Assembly (NCBI RefSeq): GCF_001428505.1
Contig: NZ_LMHU01000001.1
Location: forward strand, 952,891 to 1,016,890
DNA length: 64,000 nt
Direction: 5' to 3'
DNA from: Terrabacter sp. Root181
GTDB taxonomy: Bacteria; Actinomycetota; Actinomycetes; Actinomycetales; Dermatophilaceae
Both the position numbers and the translations under genes were made by a program. Under the pieces are notes generated by a model that saw only the letters and a list, made by a program, of their open reading frames with translations, made no database searches and was not told where the DNA came from. This document shows positions 1,773 through 12,336 of the stretch, in pieces (position 1 is the first letter of the stretch; every line of letters starts with the position of its first letter).

Positions 1773-1840
1773 GACCTGCGTAAACGTGTGGTGGGCCCCG
1801 TCGGGCTCGAACCGACGACCGGCGGATTAAAAGTCCGATG
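1773..1840. repeat. Left attachment site: displaced 3' half of tRNA-Lys
   Basis: These 68 bases match 12245-12312 with one mismatch (T at 1781, C at 12253). They contain the CCA end, acceptor strand, T-arm and anticodon region of tRNA-Lys on the minus strand, but the 5' half of a tRNA does not follow (after 1840 the sequence diverges). This is the far junction of an integrative element that uses the tRNA 3' end as its target. Confidence 0.93.
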
Positions 1841-1966
1841 TCACGGAGCCCTTGAACACTAGTCTACATGGCCCGGCGACCAGCGGAGACGCGCGAATCG
1901 TCCTGCGACGATTGACAATCAGCAAATCGGCTGTGGCGCACCCCGACGCATCGGGGCCGACCTCGG

Positions 1967-1996
1967 CGGAGCCCTACCGGAGCCCGTACGGAGCCC
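1967..1996. repeat. Three phased arm-type repeats near the left end
   Basis: CGGAGCCC occurs at 1967, 1978 and 1989, exactly 11 bp apart, with a further CGGAGCCCTT at 1844 beside the attachment core. Two more copies, again 11 bp apart, lie inside the right end (12180 and 12191). Helically phased direct repeats at both ends of an integrase-bearing element are what arm-type binding sites of a tyrosine recombinase or its excisionase look like. Binding itself is inferred. Confidence 0.6.
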
Positions 1997-2105
1997 CTTG
2001 AAGGTGCTCTCGGTAGTGCGGGAAACTTGCCGTCGGGGCGGCGTAAACGTCCGGATCTGCCGATGTGCGGACGTTGTGAATCCGCTGTCGTCTACGCTGC
2101 TGAAC

Positions 2106-2384
2106 GTGGCAAATGAGGTGCGGTGCTTTCACTCACACCCGCCCAAGCGTGAGACACGGCTGTCGGACGGGACTGAACATCGCGGGGTCGTCGTGTGCCT
2201 GCACCCGTTCGGGCTGGGTGTGTTTCTTCCGGACCAGGAGACCTTTGGGCATGTCGATACCCCGATGATGGGCCGGTCCGCGACCTCGGGGCTTGACGAC
2301 TATCCCCCGGTTGGCAGCGTCGTGTTGTTGACGGTGCTGGGCTACTCGGGCTTGGAGCAACTGCGCCTATCGGTCAACACCTGA
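2106..2384 (+). CDS. Small S1-like RNA-binding-domain protein
   Basis: A 92-residue protein whose core (GVVVCLHPFGLGVFLP, then DDYPPVGSVVLLTVLG and QLRLSV) has the strand pattern of an S1/OB RNA-binding domain. I chose the GTG at 2106 because a TACGCT box at 2093-2098 lies exactly 7 bases upstream, the leaderless geometry seen repeatedly in this window. It is the only gene of the element on the plus strand and sits between the attachment site and the integrase, a usual place for accessory cargo. Its role is unknown; immunity to secretion stress or RNA binding would be guesses. Confidence 0.55.
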   Translation: MANEVRCFHSHPPKRETRLSDGTEHRGVVVCLHPFGLGVFLPDQETFGHVDTPMMGRSATSGLDDYPPVGSVVLLTVLGYSGLEQLRLSVNT

Positions 2385-2437
2385 TCGTCCGCTCGTGCCG
2401 CGATCAGCGAGCGCACCGCGAGGGATCGCTCAGACGG

Positions 2438-3700
2438 CTACTGGACCGCGCGCAGATGGTTGCGTCGGGTCGGCGCGGTCGCGCTGGACGTGGCGCGGTC
2501 GAGCGCGGCGAGACGCTCGGCGTGGCGGGAGGAGTCCTCAGCGAACAGGTGCGTGTAGATCTGGCGCGTGATGATGTCGTCGGCGTGCCCGAGCCACGCC
2601 GCAACTTGGGCCGAGGGGATGCCCTGGCTGGCGGCGAGGGAGGCGAACGTGTGCCGCAGATCGTGCAGCCGGGGCGAGCCGATGCCGAGCGCAAGCGTGG
2701 CCGGGCGGAATCGTCGCTTCAGGAAAGTGCCCGCCTCCCATGGGTGGCTCCAATCGAGACGCCCGCTGCCCGTGGCGGCGGCGAACCTGCCGGACGTTCG
2801 CGGGCCGGTGCTCGCGCCGGGGCGGGTGCCGGGCCAGAGCGGCGCGTCGGGGTTGTCGCGGTCGGGGTGCATCGCGAGCACGTCGTGCACCGCCCTGAGC
2901 GCGCTTGGCAGCAGCGGCACGGTGCGAGCCTTGCCCGACTTCGGCGTGTGCTCAGACCACACCCCACCCCGGAAGGCACGGGTGCGGGTGACCGTGATGG
3001 AGGGTGTGGAGGATTCAAGGTTCACGTCACCGACGTTGAGCCCGGCGACCTCGCCGGTACGCAGGCCGGTCCAGGCCATGAAGCGGACGAGCGCGCCCCA
3101 CGGTGCCTCGGGGTAGGTGTCGCTGAGGCAGCGGGCGAGGCGGTCGATCTCCTCGGCGGTCATGAACTTTGGCGTGTAGTCGAGCCGACCGGTGCTCCGG
3201 TTGGTTGGAAGCCGGACGTCGCGTGCCGGGTTGTAGGTGATCGCTCGGGCGCGCACCGCGTAGGCGAACACCTGTCCCAAGACCCACCCGTGGTGCTTGA
3301 TCGTGGCCGGAGCCTTGTTGTCCCGCAACAAGCTCGTGATCCAGTCCTGCACGTCGCCCGCCGTGATTGAGCCGATACGCCGGTCACCGAACGCCGGGCG
3401 GACACTCGCGCTCCAGATCGCCCGGTAGCCGCGAGCAGTGGACGGCTTGGTGAGTGTCTCGCGCTCGGCCAACCAACGCTCACCCCAGAAGGCGAGCGAC
3501 TGCTTGCCGCCCGCGTAGTCGGGGAGATTGGCTGAGGTGATGGCGTCCTCGACCTCGCGCTTCTTGGCCTTGGCCTCGCGCTCGGTGCGATAGCGCGCCT
3601 TCTTGAAGTGACGCTTACCAGCCGTGTCGTACCAACTCCACCGCACCTCATACGGGCGTGGGCTGGTGGTGCTTGTCTCGACCTTGACGATGCGAGCCAT
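2438..3700 (-). CDS. int: Tyrosine-type site-specific integrase
   Basis: A 420-residue phage integrase. An N-terminal arm-binding-type region (residues 15-60), a SAM-like core-binding domain (about 65-165) and a catalytic domain (about 180-390) can be followed. The catalytic set is visible: R214 (TGLRTGE), H346 and R349 (LHDLRH), H372 (LGH) and the nucleophile Y382. The ATG at 3700 overlaps the stop of the serine recombinase (TGATG), so the two are translationally coupled; an in-frame upstream start inside that gene is less likely. It presumably integrates the element into tRNA-Lys between 1773-1840 and 12245-12312. Confidence 0.93.
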   Translation of the reverse strand: MARIVKVETSTTSPRPYEVRWSWYDTAGKRHFKKARYRTEREAKAKKREVEDAITSANLPDYAGGKQSLAFWGERWLAERETLTKPSTARGYRAIWSASVRPAFGDRRIGSITAGDVQDWITSLLRDNKAPATIKHHGWVLGQVFAYAVRARAITYNPARDVRLPTNRSTGRLDYTPKFMTAEEIDRLARCLSDTYPEAPWGALVRFMAWTGLRTGEVAGLNVGDVNLESSTPSITVTRTRAFRGGVWSEHTPKSGKARTVPLLPSALRAVHDVLAMHPDRDNPDAPLWPGTRPGASTGPRTSGRFAAATGSGRLDWSHPWEAGTFLKRRFRPATLALGIGSPRLHDLRHTFASLAASQGIPSAQVAAWLGHADDIITRQIYTHLFAEDSSRHAERLAALDRATSSATAPTRRNHLRAVQ

Positions 3701-4371
3701 CAGGCGACCGTCCTTCCGGCTCGGTCGAATACGCGGCGGACGGTGGACGACTGCCAACCGGGCCGACCCTGCGGGCTGAGGATGCCGTCGTCGGTGAGCC
3801 CGCGAGCGATGGCCCCGAACGAGGCTCCGCCCTCCCGCTCGCGACAGATGCGGTCCACGACGCCAGCCGTCGCGAGCCGGGGCCGACCGATCTGCTTGCC
3901 CTTGGCCTTCGCGGCGGCGAGCCCTTCGCGGGTGCGAGTCGCGATCATCTCTCGCTCCAACTCAGCGAACGTCGCCAGCATGTTCGCCATCGCCTTGCCG
4001 TACGGAGTCGACAGGTCGAGGGCGAGGTCGCAGACCACGAGGTCCCAGCCTTGGAGCCGGGCGCGCTCCATGACGTCGCTCGCGTGGAGCACCGACCGGG
4101 CAAGCCGGTCCATCTTGGCGACGATCAGGGCGTCTGCGCGCCCGGTCGCGAGTTGGTCGAGCGCGTCGCGCAGACCTGGGTTGACCTGCTTGCCGGACGC
4201 GCCCTCATCGGTGATCACATCCACGGTCCAACCGCGCCGGGTCGCCTCCGCCGTGACCGTGTCGCGTTGGGCGTCGAGCCCGAGCCCGGTGCGCACTTGC
4301 TCGGCTGTCGACACGCGGCAGTAGGCGAGTGCTCGGGTGACGGGCCGGGTGCCCGCTTGAGCCTTGCTCAT
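3700..4371 (-). CDS. Serine recombinase (resolvase/invertase family)
   Basis: A 223-residue small serine recombinase. The catalytic serine is S21 in YCRVSTAEQ, followed by the dimer core with MDRLARS and the long E-helix region (ANMLATFAELEREMI). The GRPR-type hinge and a C-terminal HTH of the Hin/resolvase kind close the protein. Ribosome-binding sequence GGAACC precedes the ATG. It is the upstream partner of the tyrosine integrase in the same operon, an unusual pairing. It might resolve element multimers, invert DNA, or help excision; the hairpin and TTACGC repeats just upstream (4410-4570) could be its site. Confidence 0.92.
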   Translation of the reverse strand: MSKAQAGTRPVTRALAYCRVSTAEQVRTGLGLDAQRDTVTAEATRRGWTVDVITDEGASGKQVNPGLRDALDQLATGRADALIVAKMDRLARSVLHASDVMERARLQGWDLVVCDLALDLSTPYGKAMANMLATFAELEREMIATRTREGLAAAKAKGKQIGRPRLATAGVVDRICREREGGASFGAIARGLTDDGILSPQGRPGWQSSTVRRVFDRAGRTVA

Positions 4372-4442
4372 CTTGGTTCCTTCCTTGTTCTCGGTCGGGC
4401 GTAACCGACCGGCTTGGCCTTACGCCCCGAACGGTACGCCTG

Positions 4443-4463
4443 CCGTCTCACTTCGTGAGACGG
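4443..4463. terminator. Perfect 9-bp-arm hairpin upstream of the recombinases
   Basis: CCGTCTCAC / GTGAGACGG with a 3-base loop. It stands in the 222-bp gap between the Zn-finger gene (stop at 4594) and the recombinase operon (start 4371), so on the minus strand it could end the upstream transcript. The same gap holds several copies of TTACGC/GCGTAA, so part of a recombination (res-like) site is an alternative reading. Confidence 0.4.
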
Positions 4464-4593
4464 TTCGCCCGCCATTCGAGCACACGGCGTGCTACGCGCC
4501 CGCCTAACGCTGCCGACGGGCTCGACCCTCGCCCGGTACTGGCCCGGCCATTACGCACCGTTACGCCACAGCCGGGGCGTGCGAGGCGTGGGC

Positions 4594-5184
4594 CTACGGG
4601 GCGAACGTCGCCCGTCCGGGGTCGGGGTCGAGGCGTAGCCCCGAGCGGATGTGGGTGGGCACCTTCACAACGGCCCCGATCCGCTTGCCTCGGGGCGGGC
4701 TCGCAGGTGCGCTTGCCGGCTGGGCGGGCGGGGCTGTGGCTGCCGGCTCGCGGATGACCTCGCCGGGGATGGTGTCGCGCTCAGGCAGCCACTCGTCACC
4801 CCACCCCCGGTCCGGGGTGGGGAGGGCGCGCCGCGGGGTGTCCTCGATGATCAGGTCGGGGTCGCTCAGGATCTCCTTGAGCAGATCGCCAAACGGATCG
4901 TCTTGCGCGAGCCCAAACTTGACCATCTGGGCCGGGGCGAAGCCTGCGCGGTCGAGGGCGTCCTTGATCGCGGACAACCGGACGGCCTCGCTCTCCGCGC
5001 TGGCGGCGATGCCAAGCAGCTGCGCCATGAGCACGTCTGCCGCCGCAGCGAGCCGCTCCGCTGCCTTCCTCCGCACCTGGGGCGCGGAGCCACCATGCTT
5101 CGGGCAGACGGTGGAGCCTCTGACCGGCCAACGGCCGCATGGAGTTCCGTCCTTCTTGTGGGCTTTGCACTTGGGCTTGTCCAT
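4594..5184 (-). CDS. Phage-type Zn-finger 'HGG' protein, possible small terminase-like
   Basis: A 196-residue protein that opens with a putative metal-binding module: C6, H9, C16, C27 and H30 in the pattern CKAHKKDGTPCGRW...VCPKHGG, then a helical segment rich in Ala (residues 35-75) and a disordered Pro/Ala-rich tail. Proteins with this CxxH...C...C..HGG-APQV start are common in actinophage genomes near terminase genes and are often called terminase small subunit or DNA-binding. That assignment is from memory and unproven here. A strong AAGGAG precedes the ATG. In this element it would be the only candidate for packaging specificity beside the capsid gene. Confidence 0.6.
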   Translation of the reverse strand: MDKPKCKAHKKDGTPCGRWPVRGSTVCPKHGGSAPQVRRKAAERLAAAADVLMAQLLGIAASAESEAVRLSAIKDALDRAGFAPAQMVKFGLAQDDPFGDLLKEILSDPDLIIEDTPRRALPTPDRGWGDEWLPERDTIPGEVIREPAATAPPAQPASAPASPPRGKRIGAVVKVPTHIRSGLRLDPDPGRATFAP

Positions 5185-5403
5185 TGCAATCTCCTTGTCC
5201 TTCAGTGTGTTTCACGTCATCCGAAATCGTGGGCCGGGGAGGGGAATCGGCGGCCTTTCACGCCTCCCCGTGCTGCGCCTAGCCTCCCTGAGCACACTTC
5301 GATAGGTCTTCACTTCCGTAGGTCATCGCGCGAGTCCTCCATACCTGCAAGAAGATCGGCCCCGGCAAGGGGTGGACCAAGGGGGTGGGTGGGGTAACCG
5401 GCC

Positions 5404-5531
5404 TTCTCTAGCCACCCCTTGACCGACCAAGGAGTCGCTAGAGGAGGTTGATTCCCCGTAAGAGAGCCTTGCCCCACCCCTAGCCCTTCCGTGCCACGTT
5501 TCCGCTGGTCGGAGCAAGAAGTGGCTAGAGG
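5404..5531. other. Iteron-like repeat region, candidate replication origin
   Basis: Within the 370-bp gap between the Zn-finger gene and the ATPase gene a 26-bp sequence occurs at 5506-5531 and, with several changes, at 5420-5445; an inverted partial copy starts at 5404. Together 5406-5443 form an interrupted palindrome (CTCTAGC...CCTTG...CAAGG...GCTAGAG). Repeats plus dyad symmetry beside the primase and helicase genes are the usual build of a plasmid or phage origin. A weak TTG-start frame of 82 codons (5310-5558) covers it but shows no recognisable domain and is probably not coding. Confidence 0.45.
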
Positions 5532-5554
5532 CTGGTGCTCCTTCTCATGCGACC

Positions 5555-6763
5555 TCAACCCGATTCACCACCCTGCACAGCATCGGGCGGCGCGACGGTC
5601 CATTCCCAGCCGCAGATCGCCGCGCCCTCGCGGCGCTGCACCGAACGAACGCCATAGTGGCGCTTGGTCCGCTTGATGGTGTCGAGGGTGTGCCCGGCCT
5701 CCTGCAAGAGACGCTGCACCTCACGCGCCGGTCGCGGGTCGCGCTCCGCCAGAAGCGCCTTCATGTTCTCCCAACACTCGTCCCGTTCTGGGGCGTCGCG
5801 CCGGGAGTCGTGGCCCCGGAGGAGCGTGTCGGCGTCCATGTCCACCGGCTCACCCCACTCGATGCCTGAGGTATCGATGGACTTGCCGCCAGCATCAGTG
5901 ACCTCTCGCGGCACGATCACGTATCGCACTGACCGGCCCCGCACGGTGATGTTGGCCTTGGAGTGGACGAAGACGTACGTGCCTGGCTCCTCTGGATGCT
6001 CGCCGACCATCCACGCCGACCGGGCAAGCCCGATGAAGCCGCCGTGTGAGCCGCCACCCCGGTACTCAGCCTTCAGGTCGACCGACTTGTTGAGGTGGCG
6101 GATCAGTACGAACGCCGCGCCGGTCTTGGCGGCGAGTTCCTTGAAGGGGCCGAGCGCCTTGCGCACGCTCGCGTCGCTGCTGGTGTTTGTGTCCTCCCCG
6201 AAGAACGCCATGATCGGGTCCACGACCACCAGTACGGCGTCGACAGCCTTGACGGCCTGCCGCACCTTCGTCGTGTCCTTTGGAAACTCCAGGGCTCGGA
6301 CTTGGCCGTCGTCGGAGCGTTGCATCCCAACGACGGCAACACGATCCAGCGCAGCTGGGATGTCCTTGCATCCGTACTCCTGAAGCGCCCCGACAAGCCG
6401 CGGGAGGATCGTGTCTCCCCAGTCGTCCTCCGCGCAGACCATCACGACACCACAAGGCGAAACCCGTTTCCGGGAAGCCGGGCGCGAGACACTGACATGA
6501 ACACGCATGTCGGGCAGTGGCAGCCCCATGATGACGCGCGCCGCAAGGTCGACGGTGATCTGGGACTTGCCCTTGCCGGGATCACCGTCGAACACAGTGA
6601 TCTTCCCCAGCGGGAGGTATGGGTACCAAAGGTGCCGGGCGGCGCGCATCGTGAAGTCGCTGGCTCGGAGCACGCCGTCTCCATGCAGCGGGATGACGTT
6701 GTCGCCGGCCGCCCTGGGCGCGTTGCTTGGCATGCTTGGTCTCTCGTTCCGTTGCCGGCTCAT
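5555..6763 (-). CDS. RecA/RepA-like AAA ATPase (replicative helicase type)
   Basis: A 402-residue ATPase. Walker A is GDPGKGKS at residues 60-67, Walker B is VLVVVD at about 177-182, followed by the IRHLNKS and GGGSHGGFIGLARS segments found in RepA/Gp4-type hexameric helicases. A C-terminal helical, winged-helix-like region (about 330-390) follows. The ATG overlaps the stop of the TOPRIM gene (ATGA), so the pair is translated together and likely acts as primase plus helicase for autonomous replication of the element. Confidence 0.82.
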   Translation of the reverse strand: MSRQRNERPSMPSNAPRAAGDNVIPLHGDGVLRASDFTMRAARHLWYPYLPLGKITVFDGDPGKGKSQITVDLAARVIMGLPLPDMRVHVSVSRPASRKRVSPCGVVMVCAEDDWGDTILPRLVGALQEYGCKDIPAALDRVAVVGMQRSDDGQVRALEFPKDTTKVRQAVKAVDAVLVVVDPIMAFFGEDTNTSSDASVRKALGPFKELAAKTGAAFVLIRHLNKSVDLKAEYRGGGSHGGFIGLARSAWMVGEHPEEPGTYVFVHSKANITVRGRSVRYVIVPREVTDAGGKSIDTSGIEWGEPVDMDADTLLRGHDSRRDAPERDECWENMKALLAERDPRPAREVQRLLQEAGHTLDTIKRTKRHYGVRSVQRREGAAICGWEWTVAPPDAVQGGESG

Positions 6764-7494
6764 ATCGGACTGCCTGACCCGTCTGGGTGGGGGTTGCTGG
6801 CCATGACTCGCAGAGCAAACTTCTCGAGTTTGTGCAGGTCCATCGGCACCAGGTCATCGAGCGTGTAGCCGTCCTTGAGGTGGTCGGTGACGTCACGACC
6901 CCTGTCGAGCGGCATCGGCCCAGCAGCGCGGACGACCGTGATTCGCTCGCTCGGGATGCCGAATCGTGTGAGTAGCCCGTACCACCGGAACGCGGTAACG
7001 GCACCGGCGTCGTCCGCGTCGGCACACACGACGACACCTCCCCGCCATGGGCGGAGGCGTCGCGCCTGTCGGGAGGTCGGCCCGCCCGAGCCCTGCCTGG
7101 CTCCGCCCTGCCAGTGCGACACGGCCACCACCCCAGGCAGGCCGAGCGCGGCGATGGAGTCGGCGTCCTTCTCGCCCTCGGTGATGTAGAGGGTGCCGTG
7201 CTCGGAACCCTCAACCGCCGCAAGCAGGTCGGGCAGCCGGTACAGAAGGCTGTCGAAGTAGGCGCGCGCGGCTGGGTACTTGCGTTTGAGCGTTTTGGGC
7301 TGAACCCACGCCATGCCCTCGCCCTTTCGCGCCTGCATGTAGAAGGACTTCTGCTCGGCGGGGAAGGGGATGTCATCGGTGGGTGGTGGGGTCCGCTGGA
7401 ACCGAATCTTGCGCAGCCGCAGGTGTCCTTGGCTGTCTGGGTAGTGGTACGTGGCGCCGTTCACCAGATGCTCCGAGTCTTCGTGGGGCTCCAC
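6760..7494 (-). CDS. TOPRIM-domain primase-like protein
   Basis: A 244-residue protein with a TOPRIM fold: the acidic E106 in LYITEGEKDAD and the DxD pair D159/D161 in VVVCADADDAG. An N-terminal stretch (residues 14-60, ATYHYPDSQGHLRLRKIRF) resembles the region before TOPRIM in phage and plasmid DnaG-like proteins, but neither the zinc ribbon nor the full RNA-polymerase core of a DnaG is present. The GTG start at 7494 overlaps the upstream gene by 34 bases, so a later start or a frameshifted fusion with that gene is possible. Confidence 0.75.
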   Translation of the reverse strand: MEPHEDSEHLVNGATYHYPDSQGHLRLRKIRFQRTPPPTDDIPFPAEQKSFYMQARKGEGMAWVQPKTLKRKYPAARAYFDSLLYRLPDLLAAVEGSEHGTLYITEGEKDADSIAALGLPGVVAVSHWQGGARQGSGGPTSRQARRLRPWRGGVVVCADADDAGAVTAFRWYGLLTRFGIPSERITVVRAAGPMPLDRGRDVTDHLKDGYTLDDLVPMDLHKLEKFALRVMASNPHPDGSGSPI

Positions 7495-7907
7495 GACGGC
7501 ACGAACTGGTCTGGGAAGTCCATGACAACGCCCACCGGCCCGTAGATGACGCAGGTTGAGTCGGTCGAGAACAGTCGGTGGATCGCGCCTTGTCCGGGGA
7601 TGAACGCTTGGACCCCGACCGCTGCTGCGTACTCCTCGACTGCCTTGCAGTGCAGGTCGTGACCTGGCTCGCCAGGTCGTTGCGCGTACGGGAAGCAGAT
7701 GAGGATGCGGTGCTGGGTCTCCGTGGCCGTGAACACGAAGGCGTTGGCGAGCAGCGTTCGTCGCGCTGGCAGGCAGTAGTCACGGTGGGCTCGGGTGTCG
7801 AGGCGGCCACCACGGATCGCATGTGCGCACGGGTGGCGGGTGCTGGGGCGCAGGCGAACGGCCTGCGCCCAGAGCGCGATGTGCTCACCGAACTGTGGGT
7901 TCTTCAT
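7461..7907 (-). CDS. Unknown element protein upstream of the TOPRIM gene
   Basis: 148 residues, not recognised. Scattered cysteines and histidines in the first half (HPCAH, DYCLP) might bind metal but form no clear ribbon; the second half (residues 60-135) has alternating hydrophobic strands (AFVFTATETQHRILICFPYA). Because it ends inside the TOPRIM gene and primases usually carry an N-terminal zinc domain, it could supply the missing primase N-terminus as a separate subunit. This is inference from position only. Confidence 0.55.
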   Translation of the reverse strand: MKNPQFGEHIALWAQAVRLRPSTRHPCAHAIRGGRLDTRAHRDYCLPARRTLLANAFVFTATETQHRILICFPYAQRPGEPGHDLHCKAVEEYAAAVGVQAFIPGQGAIHRLFSTDSTCVIYGPVGVVMDFPDQFVPSWSPTKTRSIW

Positions 7908-7922
7908 GGCAGGCAGGCTTGC

Positions 7923-8276
7923 TCAGGCGACGCGACGCACGAGGCGCACGGCGGGCGGCAGGAGGGTCAGCGGCGAGTTCGCGGCGTCGACCTGTCGCGA
8001 CAGCCAAATCTGCGCAGTGCAGACGTTCTGGGCGTGGTTGACCGGCTGCCCACGCTTCACGTCAAGCGAGTCAAACCAAGCCGTGAGGTCGGCGAGGACC
8101 GCGCTGCGGCTCTGGACGTGAACACCCTTGCCCGAGAAGCACACCCGGATGATCAGCTGTGCCTCGATGGTGACCGGCGCGTCCGACTGCTGCCAACGGA
8201 TTCGACCTCGGGTCAAAGGAACTCGCGACAACGGCATCGCGCGGTCGTCGGGTAGTCTCGAAGTGTTGATACTCAT
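7923..8276 (-). CDS. Unknown element protein, 117 residues
   Basis: I chose the ATG at 8276 because GGAGGAGAT stands just upstream; earlier in-frame codons lack such a site. The protein is basic with a central strand-rich part (VTIEAQLIIRVCFSGKGVHV) and ends in RLVRRVA. It is not recognised and has no membrane segment. It lies between the HTH gene and the primase-side genes in the same direction, so it is probably part of the element's replication or control operon. Confidence 0.6.
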   Translation of the reverse strand: MSINTSRLPDDRAMPLSRVPLTRGRIRWQQSDAPVTIEAQLIIRVCFSGKGVHVQSRSAVLADLTAWFDSLDVKRGQPVNHAQNVCTAQIWLSRQVDAANSPLTLLPPAVRLVRRVA

Positions 8277-8360
8277 GGGAATCTCCTCCTCCTTCTGGGG
8301 GTTCCTGGCGGGGCAGTCACTTTGGCTCGGCGGCTGCCCCGCAGTCACGCCCGGCGTTGG

Positions 8361-8609
8361 TCAGTTCTTGGCGCCGAGATACGCGGCGTTGAGGTCGTTG
8401 AGGAAGCGGACAAAGTCGTCCGGGTCGATGCGCAGGACGTTGATCCGCACGGCGCGGAACCGACGCTCACGGAGCATGTCGTGCACCCAACGCACGTTGA
8501 CGCCGTACTCCTCAGCGATCTCCAGCGCGGTCGGCCAGTCGCGAGCGGCCCGGAACTCATCAGCGGTCAGCGTCGACCCAGCCGGGCTACGCCTGGTTGG
8601 CTTGGCCAT
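8361..8609 (-). CDS. Small helix-turn-helix protein (excisionase/regulator type)
   Basis: 82 residues with an HTH of the MerR/excisionase kind: TALEIAEEYGVNVRWVHDMLRE reads as two helices around a turn, followed by a short beta wing (RFRAVRINVLRIDPDDFVRFL). A clean AAGGAG precedes the ATG. Small proteins of this build in integrative elements are either excision factors that bend attachment-site DNA or regulators of the replication operon. The element has a second one at 10449-10673, so the roles may be split. Confidence 0.7.
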   Translation of the reverse strand: MAKPTRRSPAGSTLTADEFRAARDWPTALEIAEEYGVNVRWVHDMLRERRFRAVRINVLRIDPDDFVRFLNDLNAAYLGAKN

Positions 8610-8612
8610 TTC

Positions 8613-9107
8613 TCAAACTCCTTGCGGTTGTGTGTTGTTCGGGTTGTAGACCCAGACCGGCTTGAGGTTGTCGTCGAGCCAAGCCAGGTTGAACATCTCT
8701 GCGCAGCCATGGCAGAAGACAAGGCCGATGATTTTGGCGCCGTGCGCGAACAGCAGTGCCCCGTATGGCGGCTTGTCCTCGGCGCACCGATCGCAGGTCG
8801 AGGTCTGCCCCAGTGCGAGCGGGTACGAGTGCGCGGCAAACATGGCCACGTCCTCACCCCGCTGCACCTGCACCGCAGCACCGTTCACCGGCCAGACGAG
8901 CGTCACTTGGTCAGGCCGGACGAGTGCACCCCACGCACTGTCGCTGTCCGGGCCGATCGCGCAGTCCAGCAACCGAGCCTCCACCTTGAGGTCGCTCCAC
9001 ATGGCCTTGTTGTGGGGCCAAAGGCGTTCGGCGTCCTCGGCTGCGGTAGTCGCCTGGTCGAGCACCGACCGGGCGAGCACCTCAGAGTCCTTGTCGCTCA
9101 TGGTCAT
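8613..9107 (-). CDS. Element protein with a four-cysteine zinc motif
   Basis: 164 residues. A CDRC...(about 30 residues)...CHGC arrangement in the second half suggests one bound zinc; the first 60 residues are helical and acidic. The ATG is only 5 bases after the capsid stop and lacks a clear ribosome-binding site, so it is probably translated by re-initiation behind the capsid gene. Not recognised. A head-associated role is suggested only by this tight coupling. Confidence 0.6.
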   Translation of the reverse strand: MTMSDKDSEVLARSVLDQATTAAEDAERLWPHNKAMWSDLKVEARLLDCAIGPDSDSAWGALVRPDQVTLVWPVNGAAVQVQRGEDVAMFAAHSYPLALGQTSTCDRCAEDKPPYGALLFAHGAKIIGLVFCHGCAEMFNLAWLDDNLKPVWVYNPNNTQPQGV

Positions 9108-9112
9108 GGCTG

Positions 9113-10276
9113 TCAGAACGTCCGGACGTACTTGGACGGGGCGGCGTAGGAGGCATTCGCCGTGACCTGCATGACGGCAGCGGCGCCACGGTGGCGGATG
9201 CCCGTCCCGAACCCACGAGCCCAGAACGAGTCCTGGAGCGGGTAGCGGTTGTCGGGGCCACCGACCTGCCGCAGACCCTTGAGGTCAGCGCGCACGTGCT
9301 CGCGGAATCCCACTGGGTTGTCTGGGCTGTTCGGTCCGCCGGACGCGACCGCGAGCAGGTAGCCCTTGGGCATGAGCGACTCCGGCAGGACCCAGGCCGA
9401 ACCGAACGAGCCAGCGACCGGCAGCGCGCCGTAGGTGGCGGGGGCGACCTGACCCATGATCGTGTCTGCGGTGAGGTACGCAGGGGCAGCAGCCGAGGGG
9501 ATGAAGTCAGCGGGGCTGCCTGAGGCGACCTTGAACCCGCGGATGATCTCCACGTCGTCGGGGTGCGCGAACACGAGCAGCTGTCCACTGCCGTTCGTGC
9601 CGTAGCCGTGGTGGGTGACGTGGCCCATCAGGGTGTTGAGGTCTGCGCCGTCGAAGTTCGCCGCGCCGCTCGTGAGGTAGTGCGTGTGCGTGCCCAGGAA
9701 CGTCGTGCCGTCGACCGCGGGCGGGACAGTGCCGTCCGCGTTATAGAGGCCGTAGACCGGGTTGCCCTCTGGCGAGACGCGCTGGGCCGGGTCGAAGAAC
9801 GAACCCATGATTCCCTCGAAGACCTGGCGGTTGTCGGCCTCCAGGACACCGTTGGTGTTCGAGCGCACCTGCTCCGCAGTGGCGTCGATCAGGAAGCGCC
9901 ACGTCGTGCGCACCGCGATGTCGCGGAACTTGAACGTGTACGCGACGGGCAGCGCCGTCGGCAGAGCGCGGTAGCCGACCGGCTCGCCGTACTCAGTCGT
10001 GTCCTCAAACACGAAGTCCGACGTGCCCTGCAGGACATCGTCATAGGCGTTCACCGTGCGGAACGAGAGTGCGGCGGCGAACCCATCGCGCTTGGCGTTC
10101 TGTGCGGCCGCAGCCTTGTCGAACTCTGTGAACAGGTTGGCGGTGTCGGTGCCGTCGGCGAGTTTCTTGACGACGTCGCCAGCGCTGTTGTACCCGCGCG
10201 GCATGGCGCCAAAGATCGGGAAGACGGGCGTGCCGGCTCGGGTGTACCCGACTAGTGACCTCATGGTGAGGTTCAT
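9113..10276 (-). CDS. Phage-type major capsid protein (HK97-like), solitary
   Basis: 387 residues, starting at the ATG behind AAGGAG. The opening (RSLVGYTRAGTPVFPI) and body (FEDTTEYGEPVGYRA, then RTTWRFLIDATAEQVR, GYLLAVASGGPNS and the ending FWARGFGTGIRHRGAAAV) look like major capsid proteins of actinobacterial siphophages and prophages. I recognise the pattern from memory; fold prediction was not run. No protease, portal, large terminase, connector or tail gene is nearby, so the element cannot build a virion alone. It could build small capsids for itself with help from a phage, or the gene may be a relic; the intact frame and good ribosome-binding site argue against decay. Confidence 0.62.
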   Translation of the reverse strand: MNLTMRSLVGYTRAGTPVFPIFGAMPRGYNSAGDVVKKLADGTDTANLFTEFDKAAAAQNAKRDGFAAALSFRTVNAYDDVLQGTSDFVFEDTTEYGEPVGYRALPTALPVAYTFKFRDIAVRTTWRFLIDATAEQVRSNTNGVLEADNRQVFEGIMGSFFDPAQRVSPEGNPVYGLYNADGTVPPAVDGTTFLGTHTHYLTSGAANFDGADLNTLMGHVTHHGYGTNGSGQLLVFAHPDDVEIIRGFKVASGSPADFIPSAAAPAYLTADTIMGQVAPATYGALPVAGSFGSAWVLPESLMPKGYLLAVASGGPNSPDNPVGFREHVRADLKGLRQVGGPDNRYPLQDSFWARGFGTGIRHRGAAAVMQVTANASYAAPSKYVRTF

Positions 10277-10448
10277 ATGTGAATCTCCTTGGTATCGAAG
10301 CGAATTTTGGGTGGGTTGCGCCTCTGACGTCATCCCGCGAATCGGGCCGCTGGCTCCGACGACGACGAACGTACGCCATCGGCGGAATCGACGCGGCACG
10401 AGTGCCCTTGTGGGAGAAAGCAACCCACTCCAGCCCAAGCAGGCAGGG

Positions 10449-10673
10449 TCAGGCGAGGCGACCGGATGTGGCTGGGGTCGTGGATGCCTCGATGAGCGCG
10501 TCCAACGCGGACTGCCGGATGCGGATGCGGCTTTTGGGCTGGCCGCCGATCTTGATGATGGGCAAGATCCCATCGCGGATCAGTCGTCGCACGGCGGACT
10601 CGGTGTAGCCGAGGTAGTCGGCCACCTGCCACACGTCGAGGAGTGGATCTGGCTGAGCAGGAGTGGAACTCAT
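10449..10673 (-). CDS. xis: Excisionase-like HTH protein
   Basis: 74 residues forming a MerR/Xis-type winged helix: DVWQVADYLGYTESAVRRLI is the HTH and GILPIIKIGGQPKSRIRI the wing. This is the HTH_17 pattern found in excisionases and in DNA-binding subunits of integrative elements. It precedes the capsid gene by 172 bp. That gap holds a 9-bp inverted repeat (10311-10319 with 10420-10428), a possible operator. Confidence 0.75.
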   Translation of the reverse strand: MSSTPAQPDPLLDVWQVADYLGYTESAVRRLIRDGILPIIKIGGQPKSRIRIRQSALDALIEASTTPATSGRLA

Positions 10674-10976
10674 GGCTTGCCTCTTCAGATGGAGTCATCG
10701 GAGAGGCAGCGGACACAGAGAAGCCGAGCGCGGCCCGCTCCGATGGATCGGAAACGGAGTGCCACTGCTCGGCTGGGGAGTGACCACCCTGACGTGTGTA
10801 TCAGTGTGTCAGTGTGTCGGCGTCTGTGCGTTTGCGTGTTCGGGGGTCTCGGCATATCGGTGTACGAGCGATGCTAACACCGCGAGTTCCGTTGGCGCTA
10901 CTAGCCCGACGCACCTCGGCGCACGAATCGTGTTCGCGTGCAAGCGATCCGGTGGGTATGCCAGCGCGAGGACGCT
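10674..10976. other. Non-coding control region of the element
   Basis: About 300 bp without a convincing gene. On the minus strand 10790-10840 carries GT/CA-rich tandem repeats (units like CACACTGA and TACACACG), followed toward 10880 by the most A/T-rich part (GTGTTAGCATCG). Placed between the toxin-antitoxin pair and the excisionase-capsid operon, it is a likely promoter/operator zone; I could not assign exact promoter boxes. Confidence 0.35.
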
Positions 10977-11441
10977 TCACGACGTAAGTCGGGTCACTCT
11001 CGCTCGATGCTGCATCTCAGGCGCGTTCCGGACCGTGATCCGTTGCTTCGCTTCGCGCTGGAGACCGCGCAGGGTAATCCAGCATCCGTTGGTACCTGCC
11101 CACGAGCCGATGGTGTCCAGGGCATGGGGGAGCCCGGCCATGAGGCAGGCGGCTGAAGCCGCGAGCCCGTGCAGGTCCCCTTGACGTTGAACGTTCAGCC
11201 CAACCCAGTGCAGGCCGCTATCGAGAAGCGCCTCTCTGTGGTTGCGAAGTTGGCTGCGGTCCTGCGTGACCATGACGTCGAACTGACTCTGGAGCGACTG
11301 GATCAGCGCGTCGTCGTCGGCGCTGACCAGCCTGCCGCCGTTGTGTTCGAAGATGGACACCAACTCGTGCTCTCTGCCGAGGAGCGGCCGCAGCGGGTCC
11401 ACCACTGTGGGGGACATGTTCTCGTCAAAGAAGAACTTCAC
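10977..11441 (-). CDS. PIN-like (DUF5615-type) toxin
   Basis: 154 residues beginning FFFDENMSPTVVDPL, with acidic residues D6/E7, a SADDDALI segment and MVTQDRSQL at about 55-65, the layout of the PIN-like DUF5615/Mut7-C family of putative RNases. The GTG start overlaps the stop of the upstream antitoxin gene (GTGA), the classic toxin-antitoxin coupling. The C-terminal third is longer than in minimal members. It probably cleaves RNA when the antitoxin decays and so stabilises the element in its host. Confidence 0.72.
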   Translation of the reverse strand: MKFFFDENMSPTVVDPLRPLLGREHELVSIFEHNGGRLVSADDDALIQSLQSQFDVMVTQDRSQLRNHREALLDSGLHWVGLNVQRQGDLHGLAASAACLMAGLPHALDTIGSWAGTNGCWITLRGLQREAKQRITVRNAPEMQHRARVTRLTS

Positions 11442-12040
11442 GCCGGGACCGCTTCAACCGACAGGTGGAAGTCACGGGCATCCTTGGCTGCCTCCGCCGA
11501 AACGCCAGGGTAGTAACGCGAGACCTGTTCCGCCGGAACGTCCTCCATGAGGCTGGCCACCAAGTCGTACGGCACCCGAGTGCCCCGGATCGTGGGCCAT
11601 CCGGCGAGACGCGCCTCACGGATCTCCAAGTTCTCGCGCGGGTGTCTGAGGTCCACGACCCGCTCACCCCTCATGTTCTTGAAGGGGTGCATGACGTCCG
11701 CGAGCGAGGTCAGCATCGTCTGACGTCTCCGCTTCACCAGATCCGTGATGTCGTCCCCTTGCACAAGGAAGACGCTTTCACCGTCAGAGAAGAGGGCGTA
11801 CTGCGACGGGTGCTCCGTGAGGTCCAGCTCGCTCAGTGTGCTGAAGGCGCTGCGAATCCGTTGGAGGGGTACGTCCGAGCGCAGTCGAGCGACGGTGCGC
11901 AAAGCCATGATGTCTCGGAAGGAGTACAAGTACCGTGGCTGCCGACCGTGGGCTGGCTCCAAAATGCCGGTGGTGGCCCAGTGCCGCAGTTGGCCTTCGC
12001 TGGCCCCGGAAAGCTTGGACGCCAGATGGATCGGGTACAT
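11438..12040 (-). CDS. MerR-HTH plus DUF433 antitoxin/regulator
   Basis: 200 residues. Residues 1-70 are a MerR-type winged helix (SGASEGQLRHWATTGIL, then PRYLYSFRDIMALR), residues 145-190 a DUF433 domain (GWPTIRGTRVPYDLV, then VPAEQVSRYYPGVS). DUF433 proteins are the usual antitoxins of DUF5615 toxins; here the DNA-binding module is fused to it, which would let the complex repress its own promoter. AAGGAGGAG lies just before the ATG at 12040; an upstream in-frame ATG at 12148 has no such site. First gene inside the right end of the element. Confidence 0.75.
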   Translation of the reverse strand: MYPIHLASKLSGASEGQLRHWATTGILEPAHGRQPRYLYSFRDIMALRTVARLRSDVPLQRIRSAFSTLSELDLTEHPSQYALFSDGESVFLVQGDDITDLVKRRRQTMLTSLADVMHPFKNMRGERVVDLRHPRENLEIREARLAGWPTIRGTRVPYDLVASLMEDVPAEQVSRYYPGVSAEAAKDARDFHLSVEAVPA

Positions 12041-12179
12041 GGCTCCTCCTTCCGCACCCTTGAGGTCTCGCTTGCGCTCATCATGCCAGCGACCGGGGTC
12101 AATCGCTTGGCAGAATCGCCCACAGACGCGTGGGCCGTACGCCGACACCTTGAGCCCGTGAGAGGGCCCTCCGAGGCAC

Positions 12180-12199
12180 CGGAGCCCTTACGGAGCCCT
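12180..12199. repeat. Two phased arm-type repeats near the right end
   Basis: CGGAGCCCT at 12180 and 12191, 11 bp apart, the same unit and spacing as the left-end cluster at 1967-1996. The surrounding bases (ACCGGAGCCC-TACGGAGCCC) also match between the two ends. Probable binding sites of the integrase arm domain or of the excisionase. Confidence 0.6.
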
Positions 12200-12244
12200 C
12201 GGCGGGTGCAGTGATCGCCGCTGAGTACGTCGGAAACCGCTCTC

Positions 12245-12312
12245 GACCTGCGCAAACGTGTGGTGGGCCCCGTCGGGCTCGAACCGACGACCGGCGGATT
12301 AAAAGTCCGATG
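12245..12312. repeat. Right attachment site within tRNA-Lys
   Basis: Direct repeat partner of 1773-1840, identical over the last 59 bases. It supplies the 3' half of the intact tRNA-Lys, so the element restores the tRNA it enters; the original chromosomal 3' half is the left copy. Confidence 0.93.
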
Positions 12313-12336
12313 CTCTACCGACTGAGCTAGAGGCCC
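12261..12336 (-). tRNA. tRNA-Lys (anticodon UUU)
   Basis: A complete 76-nt cloverleaf on the minus strand, from GGGCCTC at 12336 to an encoded CCA at 12263-12261. The acceptor stem pairs 7 of 7 (one G-U), the D-arm has the AGCTCAGTCGGTAGAGC form, the anticodon loop CTTTTAA gives UUU, and the T-arm carries GGTTCGAGCC. It is the integration target of the neighbouring element. Confidence 0.97.

Follow-up and report, generated by a model that had tools for sequence, protein, structure and literature searches.

Capsid-forming phage-inducible chromosomal islands (cf-PICIs) make their own capsids and carry a larger packaging module that includes portal and large terminase (TerL) genes, and the phiRv1 and phiRv2 elements have a capsid of another type, with a prohead protease. 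Among satellite capsid homologues, Ccm of SaPIbov5 is the closest case that has been worked out. The major capsid protein (MCP) of cf-PICIs is described as having more than one origin from phage capsids, with three radiations (PMC11389934). SaPIbov5 and the cos Staphylococcus aureus pathogenicity islands (SaPIs) with Ccm carry a capsid homologue of their helper and are described as lacking a small terminase (TerS) gene (PMC8569155). Candidate Mycobacterium PICIs, phiRv1 and phiRv2 included, were defined by integration machinery plus an MCP; they use tRNA sites (tyrosine integrases) or other sites (serine integrases), carry replication genes in some cases, and have MCPs of diverse lineages (Abad et al. 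2023, PMC10654092). The Streptomyces satellites MulchRoom and MiniFlayer, of 14.8 and 17.4 kb, carry a capsid gene along with both terminase subunits, portal, scaffold and adapter, and are described as having no primase homologues (deCarvalho et al., PMC10690885). Here we analyze a 10.5-kb element integrated at a tRNA-Lys gene, at positions 1773-12312 of a 64,000-nt stretch of the Terrabacter sp. Root181 genome (contig NZ_LMHU01000001.1, from base 952,891 onwards); we refer to the whole stretch as the window. We consider it likely that this element is a phage satellite that supplies an MCP and a TerS, and it is one of a family of actinobacterial elements in which portal, large terminase and tail genes are not recognised.

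Set against cf-PICIs, the element shows only an MCP and a TerS, and the full capsid and packaging module is lacking. Set against phiRv1 and phiRv2, its MCP belongs to PHROG 3990 and no protease is found. Like the Mycobacterium candidates as defined by Abad et al., it has integration machinery and an MCP gene (PMC10654092). That survey covered only Mycobacteriaceae and reports terminase and scaffold genes in some islands, and a core of TerS, serine recombinase and CxxC-CxxC protein is unmentioned in its available sections; some of the Mycobacterium loci discussed below may already be in its Data set S4. The window MCP is a homologue of a phage MCP family and may in this respect resemble Ccm; unlike the Ccm SaPIs, the elements belong to another host phylum, have another capsid, and carry a TerS-type gene. 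Compared with MulchRoom and MiniFlayer, they have primase/helicase-like genes yet only MCP and TerS. An earlier note, made from the letters of the window, had proposed a compact actinobacterial analogue of the cf-PICIs. A satellite-like element with its own HK97-family capsid is what we find as well; having one capsid gene, it is not a small cf-PICI and lies closer to SaPIbov5 Ccm, and it is not the first of its kind in the phylum (PMC10654092, PMC10690885). Capsid-carrying actinobacterial islands and a lone satellite capsid homologue were thus known already, and what appears to be new is the core of lone MCP, TerS and serine recombinase, which we did not find described across Actinomycetota in the open-licence literature, supplements aside.

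The proteins of the window were annotated with Pfam, PHROG and NCBIfam scans. The genes that matter most for the argument are the following.

2438..3697, minus strand: tyrosine integrase (Phage_integrase E 9.1e-19; PHROG 1 E 3.7e-63)
3700..4371, minus strand: small serine recombinase of the resolvase/invertase type (Resolvase E 1.3e-39; family profile in 23 of 27 loci)
4594..5184, minus strand: HGG zinc-motif protein, putative small terminase TerS (PHROG 3678 E 2.3e-9; PHROG 2538 E 1.2e-5)
5555..6763, minus strand: AAA_25 (RepA/helicase-like) ATPase (E 4.6e-25)
6760..7494, minus strand: TOPRIM primase-like protein (Toprim_4 E 4.5e-4, below the cut-off; PHROG 239 primase/helicase E 1.8e-5)
8613..9107, minus strand: CxxC-CxxC (zinc-ribbon-like) neighbour of the MCP (no known family; family profile in 19 of 27 element loci)
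9113..10276, minus strand: Patience-like HK97-fold MCP (PHROG 3990 E 1.8e-91; PDB 8saj, 8giu)

The integrase, which the earlier note had recognised, the serine recombinase and the AAA_25 ATPase pass the Pfam cut-offs; of the replication genes that it had named, the ATPase stands, and the TOPRIM match stays below threshold.

By its sequence matches, the window MCP is a genuine HK97-family capsid protein. It hits the PHROG 3990 'major head protein' family, and as a single sequence it matches the solved capsids of the actinophages Adjutor (PDB 8saj, E 3.3e-71, residues 27-384 of 387) and Patience (PDB 8giu, E 9.9e-66, residues 14-383 of 387); the profile of the MCP family reaches E 4.5e-120 against solved capsids, and the NCBIfam scan leaves the protein unmatched. 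The capsid-like gene of the earlier note is thus confirmed, and where that note would have given up its proposal for want of an HK97 fold, the matches are to HK97-fold structures. Patience-like capsids form T=7 heads (T, triangulation number) with a putative metal site of three histidines, and Patience and Adjutor, with which the elements have the MCP family and this site in common, are autonomous phages whose heads hold 64.5 and 70.5 kb, unlike the 10.5-12.9 kb elements without the remaining head and tail genes (PMC10635136). All three histidines are aligned in 14 of 16 element MCPs, that of the window included. In GenBank, 153 phage records carry this MCP family, with a best match at 44% identity; among the matches listed, the phages are of 55-72 kb except one of 43 kb, and infect mostly Mycobacterium, Gordonia and Microbacterium.

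We infer the class of helper, phages with Patience-like capsids, because the MCP and TerS families are common to the elements and one phage group. Infection by such a phage, or its induction, would cause the element to excise, and the excised element would replicate by means of its own AAA and TOPRIM proteins. Its TerS would steer the large terminase of the helper onto satellite DNA. Its MCP, possibly with the CxxC-CxxC partner, would assemble on the portal and scaffold of the helper, so that the satellite head would consist of element MCP alone or mixed with helper MCP, and would take a helper tail. The capsid gene would in this way capture head assembly much like Ccm of SaPIbov5.

Within the satellite reading there is a variant that we regard as possible, though we lean against it, in which the MCP builds no shell of its own and is a Ccm-like redirecting or interfering factor that co-assembles with the helper MCP (for example in the pentamers) and shrinks or spoils heads. 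The precedent is Ccm itself, a capsid homologue found in the pentamers of T=4 heads (PMC8569155), and each locus has a single capsid gene, save one with a minor capsid gene. The N-terminal arm also appears to be changed systematically: the best-scored start lies at most 3 residues from the conserved domain in 19 of 25 element MCPs (two loci dropped, L123 with its capsid start cut off and the fragment L137) versus 11 of 80 phage MCP open reading frames (ORFs), the choice of start being a ribosome-site heuristic, which weakens the comparison. For the window MCP the start is most likely the best-scored ATG at 10276, rather than 10573 of the long ORF, and this leaves a 24-residue extension before the domain, which speaks against the variant. 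The near-full length of the protein and its preserved metal site are as in a full shell protein, and this too speaks for an MCP that builds shells.

The HGG protein most likely serves as a small terminase encoded by the element itself. Its best PHROG is 3678, a family without assigned function (E 2.3e-9), followed by the 'terminase small subunit' families 2538 (E 1.2e-5) and 10899 (E 1.6e-3), and in the NCBIfam scan it falls 0.7 bits below the cut-off of NF041373 HGG_STG. A 12-member HGG profile matches two small terminases in PDB, 7joq (E 5.6e-10) and 6w7t (E 3.2e-9), both of which are named in a paper on the PaP3 small terminase; the match spans the middle domain behind the zinc motif and excludes the motif itself. 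HGG relatives occur in 14 phage records, and in two of five phage regions (Microcystis phage Mae-JY09 and circular phage D_HF5_3), as in the prophage-like locus L182, the HGG gene stands immediately before TerL. Amongst phages of the same MCP family, 11 of the 40 loci with visible TerL have an HGG relative upstream of it on the same strand, up to about 3.3 kb away (E up to 0.01; reversed sequences gave 0). At least 1 kb of upstream sequence is present in 24 of these 40, of which 10 have an HGG match. Because the profile matches solved small terminases and relatives sit upstream of TerL in some phages, the protein is likely a TerS, and some phages with this MCP family carry the same type. The earlier note had listed a zinc-finger 'HGG' protein together with the capsid-like gene and had the terminase wholly borrowed; with a small subunit most likely of its own, the element need borrow only the large one.

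The company of a TerS also bears on whether the MCP has turned into a cellular compartment or an anti-phage protein, in the manner of encapsulins, while the element moves by other means. We find this improbable. The MCP is the lone capsid gene, and the CxxC-CxxC partner could serve as cargo; against this, the MCP travels with a TerS-type gene whose kin precede TerL in some phages with the same MCP, and conjugation genes are absent among the proteins scanned.

Profile searches with PHROG 3990 covered 186 genomes of the family, 396 of the order and 394 of the class and found the MCP in 3, 5 and 9 of them, respectively; these samples overlap and each includes the Root181 genome, and together they give 13 genomes besides it. 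In 12 of the 13 a TerS gene stands beside the MCP, and the thirteenth (G736) has a capsid fragment only, which suggests that in most cases a match to this MCP family on an actinobacterial chromosome marks a satellite. Scanning named genomes with a pattern gave 16 MCP loci, some identical to the profile finds, in Micromonospora, Demequina, Nocardioides, Piscicoccus, Mycobacterium, Mycolicibacterium, Cryobacterium, Rhodococcus, an Intrasporangiaceae bacterium and Microbacterium; the pattern was built from element MCPs and favours elements, a bias of which the profile searches are free. A plasmid collection gave one weak match only, in Isosphaeraceae. From IMG/VR we took the best 80 of 238 relatives, near-identical contigs included, obtained with a four-sequence MCP alignment (the single window MCP as query confirmed none). 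By tblastn with Wollypog and Fowlmouth proteins, phage structural-module genes are present in 79 of these 80 loci and lacking in 15 of the 16 named-genome loci.

Of 29 profiled loci two are duplicates (L122 of L026 and L136 of L017), leaving 27 MCP loci, window included. TerS is found in 24, the serine recombinase in 23 and the CxxC-CxxC protein in 19. The three loci without TerS, all counted as misses, are the capsid fragment L137 and two cut by contig ends (L024, L075); L028 is missing the serine recombinase and has its capsid in two pieces. The CxxC-CxxC profile matches none of 81 phage loci and none of 20 HGG loci where this MCP is unseen. TerL, portal, MuF and tail profiles match 0 of the 27 loci, the profiles being derived from phages of the same MCP family, so that they could overlook portals or tails of other lineages. 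In the window itself, no portal, large terminase, protease, tail or lysis gene is recognised by PHROG on 14 element ORFs or by profiles on every ORF of at least 40 aa, and no FtsK/TraB-type transfer gene or other conjugation gene by Pfam or PHROG among the proteins scanned; the sole lysis-type match in the PHROG scan is a holin profile on the integrase at chance level (E 0.036). The absences listed in the earlier note therefore hold, as does its proposal under the test it had set, that related islands with portal or terminase genes would reveal a deleted prophage.

That the capsid gene is the remnant of a Patience-like prophage is accordingly very unlikely. In its favour, the MCP comes from phages, and some of the related loci are damaged, as L028 and L137 show. 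What a decaying prophage does not account for, besides the absence of those genes from all 27 loci, is a conserved gene order that includes a CxxC partner unseen in phages, element MCPs that form two separate clades, and bounded sizes that are alike, from 10,472 to 12,870 bp. The order MCP, CxxC, Xis, TOPRIM, AAA, TerS, serine recombinase, integrase is found in the window and in L017, and nearly the same order in L014 and L015. Five relatives could be bounded by end repeats.

L014: 11,252 bp, repeats 23/23, without tRNA
L015: 11,340 bp, repeats 44/44, tRNA-Arg
L017: 11,563 bp, repeats 52/52, tRNA-Leu
L131: 12,149 bp, repeats 40/46, tRNA-Leu
L132: 12,870 bp, repeats 45/45, tRNA-Leu

With the window element this makes six bounded in total; convincing end repeats were not found in the remaining loci searched. 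In L014, L015 and L017, a PHROG scan of almost every predicted gene found no head or tail gene besides the MCP/TerS core; in L016, L019, L027 and L029, of which 10 genes were scanned, the only such match is a partial one of a Nudix-like protein to one portal profile, in L029. The genes recognised in these scans are of replication, excision, regulation, methyltransferase and HNH types. Among the cargo are, in L017, an EcoRI-type methylase and with it a GmrSD/HNH protein, and in L018 an Eco57I-type methylase. There is a second style of integration, with large serine integrases: the L019 and L027 elements lie between the halves of a secretion-ATPase gene, which we take to be CpaF-like.

In a tree of 111 MCPs, from which L028 and L137 were excluded, 20 elements and L075, the sole IMG/VR locus without structural-module genes, form one clade with support 100/100. 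A second element clade (L023, L027, L121 and L134; 100/100) joins 12 phages (94/98). The element/phage label changes 3 times on the tree; when the labels are shuffled, the mean is 21. The simplest account would be two captures of the MCP, by elements that share their TerS and recombinase. Putting these observations together, we propose, tentatively and with slightly more doubt than belief, a class of satellites in several actinobacterial families that work with a two-part kit. TerS would take the motor; shell assembly would be taken over by a captured MCP, its arm shortened in most cases, together with a CxxC-CxxC partner confined to satellites, the satellite setting shell geometry; portal, scaffold, large terminase and tail would be the helper's; and the kit would most simply have been assembled twice from Patience-like phages. 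Actinobacterial capsid-carrying islands, until now a broad candidate list from one family, thereby become a defined group whose gene core is conserved, whose ends are measured, whose capsids fall into two clades and whose class of helper can be named. Phages with Patience-like capsids are widely available as laboratory isolates and their capsid structures are solved, and for this reason the takeover of a helper head by a lone capsid protein is directly testable.

A number of results weigh against the satellite reading or parts of it. On the tree, the starred branches force only 2 of the 3 label changes, and there may instead have been one gain followed by losses, with the capsid moving back to phages. 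For the helper, PF03354, the only TerL family searched in the host genome, is unmatched there. For the shell, the 24-residue extension of the window MCP is unlike the short N-terminus of most relatives; and if capacity is scaled by volume from 65 kb in a T=7 head, which is our own estimate, T=3 and T=4 heads would hold about 18 and 28 kb, so that an element of about 11 kb underfills both alike. The ratio of nonsynonymous to synonymous polymorphism (pN/pS) is 0.54, 0.25, 0.55 and 0.72 for the MCP in the four pairs computed, 0.75 and 0.34 for TerS, and 0.82 for the CxxC protein; all are below 1 yet not low, a constraint that is not strong. One locus has a second head gene, the only one in the 27: a minor capsid gene between the MCP and CxxC genes of L023 (L023:10956-11468). 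As to TerS, its kin are limited to those 11 of 40 TerL-bearing phage loci, two of the 11 matches are weak (L042, E 2.9e-4; L055, E 2.9e-3) and one more weak match lies elsewhere (L050). In phage Montesquieu the HGG gene stands 2.3 kb before TerL, and in Mimi and Margaery TerL was not found near it in the stretches examined. Finally, only 8 of 30 HGG-bearing genomes of the class have PHROG 3990, and in L168 and L170-L172 the same HGG TerS, serine recombinase and integrase occur with this MCP unseen. The MCP is therefore dispensable for the backbone, which in these four is either capsid-free or has an unrecognised capsid gene. A 422-aa protein of L168 was considered as an alternative capsid and rejected, having no PHROG or Pfam match and a PDB match at chance level only.

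The ends of the window element are marked by the following features.

1773..1840, no strand: attL, 68-nt repeat of the tRNA-Lys 3' half, 67/68 identical to 12245-12312
1976..1996, plus strand: putative integrase arm sites, left end (ACCGGAGCCCNTACGGAGCCC matched at both element ends)
12178..12198, plus strand: putative integrase arm sites, right end (ACCGGAGCCCNTACGGAGCCC matched at both element ends)
12245..12312, no strand: attR, 68-nt repeat copy overlapping tRNA-Lys
12261..12336, minus strand: intact tRNA-Lys, anticodon TTT, holding the right repeat copy

The direct repeats reported in the earlier note are thus real, with the right copy inside the tRNA gene, and the repeat-bounded size is 10,472 bp. 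In the whole 4.94-Mb genome the 68-nt repeat is found (E <= 0.001) at both att places and one 29-nt partial place. The pattern ACCGGAGCCCNTACGGAGCCC, of 20 fixed bases and one free, occurs with zero mismatches at both positions listed and in 0 of 100 shuffles, as for integrase arm sites; additional copies of CGGAGCCC lie at 1844 and 1967. G+C per 1-kb window is 72-75% left of the element versus 63-71% inside it. Four of eight congeners (G173, G175, G176 and G177) have the same two flanks about 1.2 kb apart, an intact tRNA-Lys and no element; G172 is partial and the other three are uninformative. In these four, a gene that is presumably thiolase-like stands between the left flank and tRNA-Lys. 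An integrase, Xis and own replication genes at a tRNA site in about 10 kb are also what actinomycete integrative and conjugative elements (AICEs) have, but an FtsK/TraB-type transfer gene is not found among the predicted proteins searched and an MCP and a TerS are present, so we give an AICE practically no credence.

The other features of the element are these.

5185..5554, no strand: non-coding gap with imperfect direct and inverted repeats (repeat scan)
7461..7907, minus strand: hypothetical ORF, no Pfam or PHROG match
7923..8279, minus strand: hypothetical ORF, no Pfam or PHROG match
8361..8609, minus strand: excisionase-like helix-turn-helix (HTH) protein 1 (HTH_17 E 6.5e-6, 0.2 bits under the cut-off)
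10449..10673, minus strand: excisionase (HTH_17 E 3e-11; TIGR01764 E 1.5e-7)
10977..11441, minus strand: PIN_10/DUF5615 toxin-like protein, cargo (PIN_10 E 4.8e-10; no PHROG match)
11438..12052, minus strand: MerR/DUF433 antitoxin-like protein, cargo (DUF433 E 2.7e-8; MerR_1 E 1.8e-7)

The gap is a possible origin or packaging site. The iteron-like region of the earlier note comes down to imperfect repeats around GGCTAGAG at 5392-5531, which are weak evidence. Its excisionase-like proteins and its toxin-antitoxin-like pair are borne out by the matches above; HTH protein 1 has relatives in L014, L015 and L017, and by analogy with the restriction-modification genes of some relatives the PIN and MerR/DUF433 pair is best seen as cargo.

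Several side observations concern neighbouring sequence. At 1630-1772 of the window roughly only the end of the thiolase-like gene is left, unlike in the four congeners, as if about 1.1 kb of the left flank had been lost. In G172 (L204, G172:C10:654000-656000) the left flank is followed by only 39 nt of the tRNA-Lys repeat with no tRNA called, as though another element had once inserted there. On a metagenomic Nocardioides contig (JAOPXC010000399.1; L019 and L022), two capsid elements about 12 kb apart, with MCPs 86% identical, suggest tandem integration, and a second integrase just past the tRNA-Leu repeat of L132 (L132:13465-14766) suggests a neighbouring element. At L174:8547-10033, a TerS-like HGG gene has a PPE-family gene as its neighbour, in a genome that shares its genus code with the other g149 loci. 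Lastly, the MerR/DUF433 protein (11438-12052) matches over its full length PHROG 31673, a phage family without assigned function (E 8.2e-66), and its gene therefore also travels with phages.

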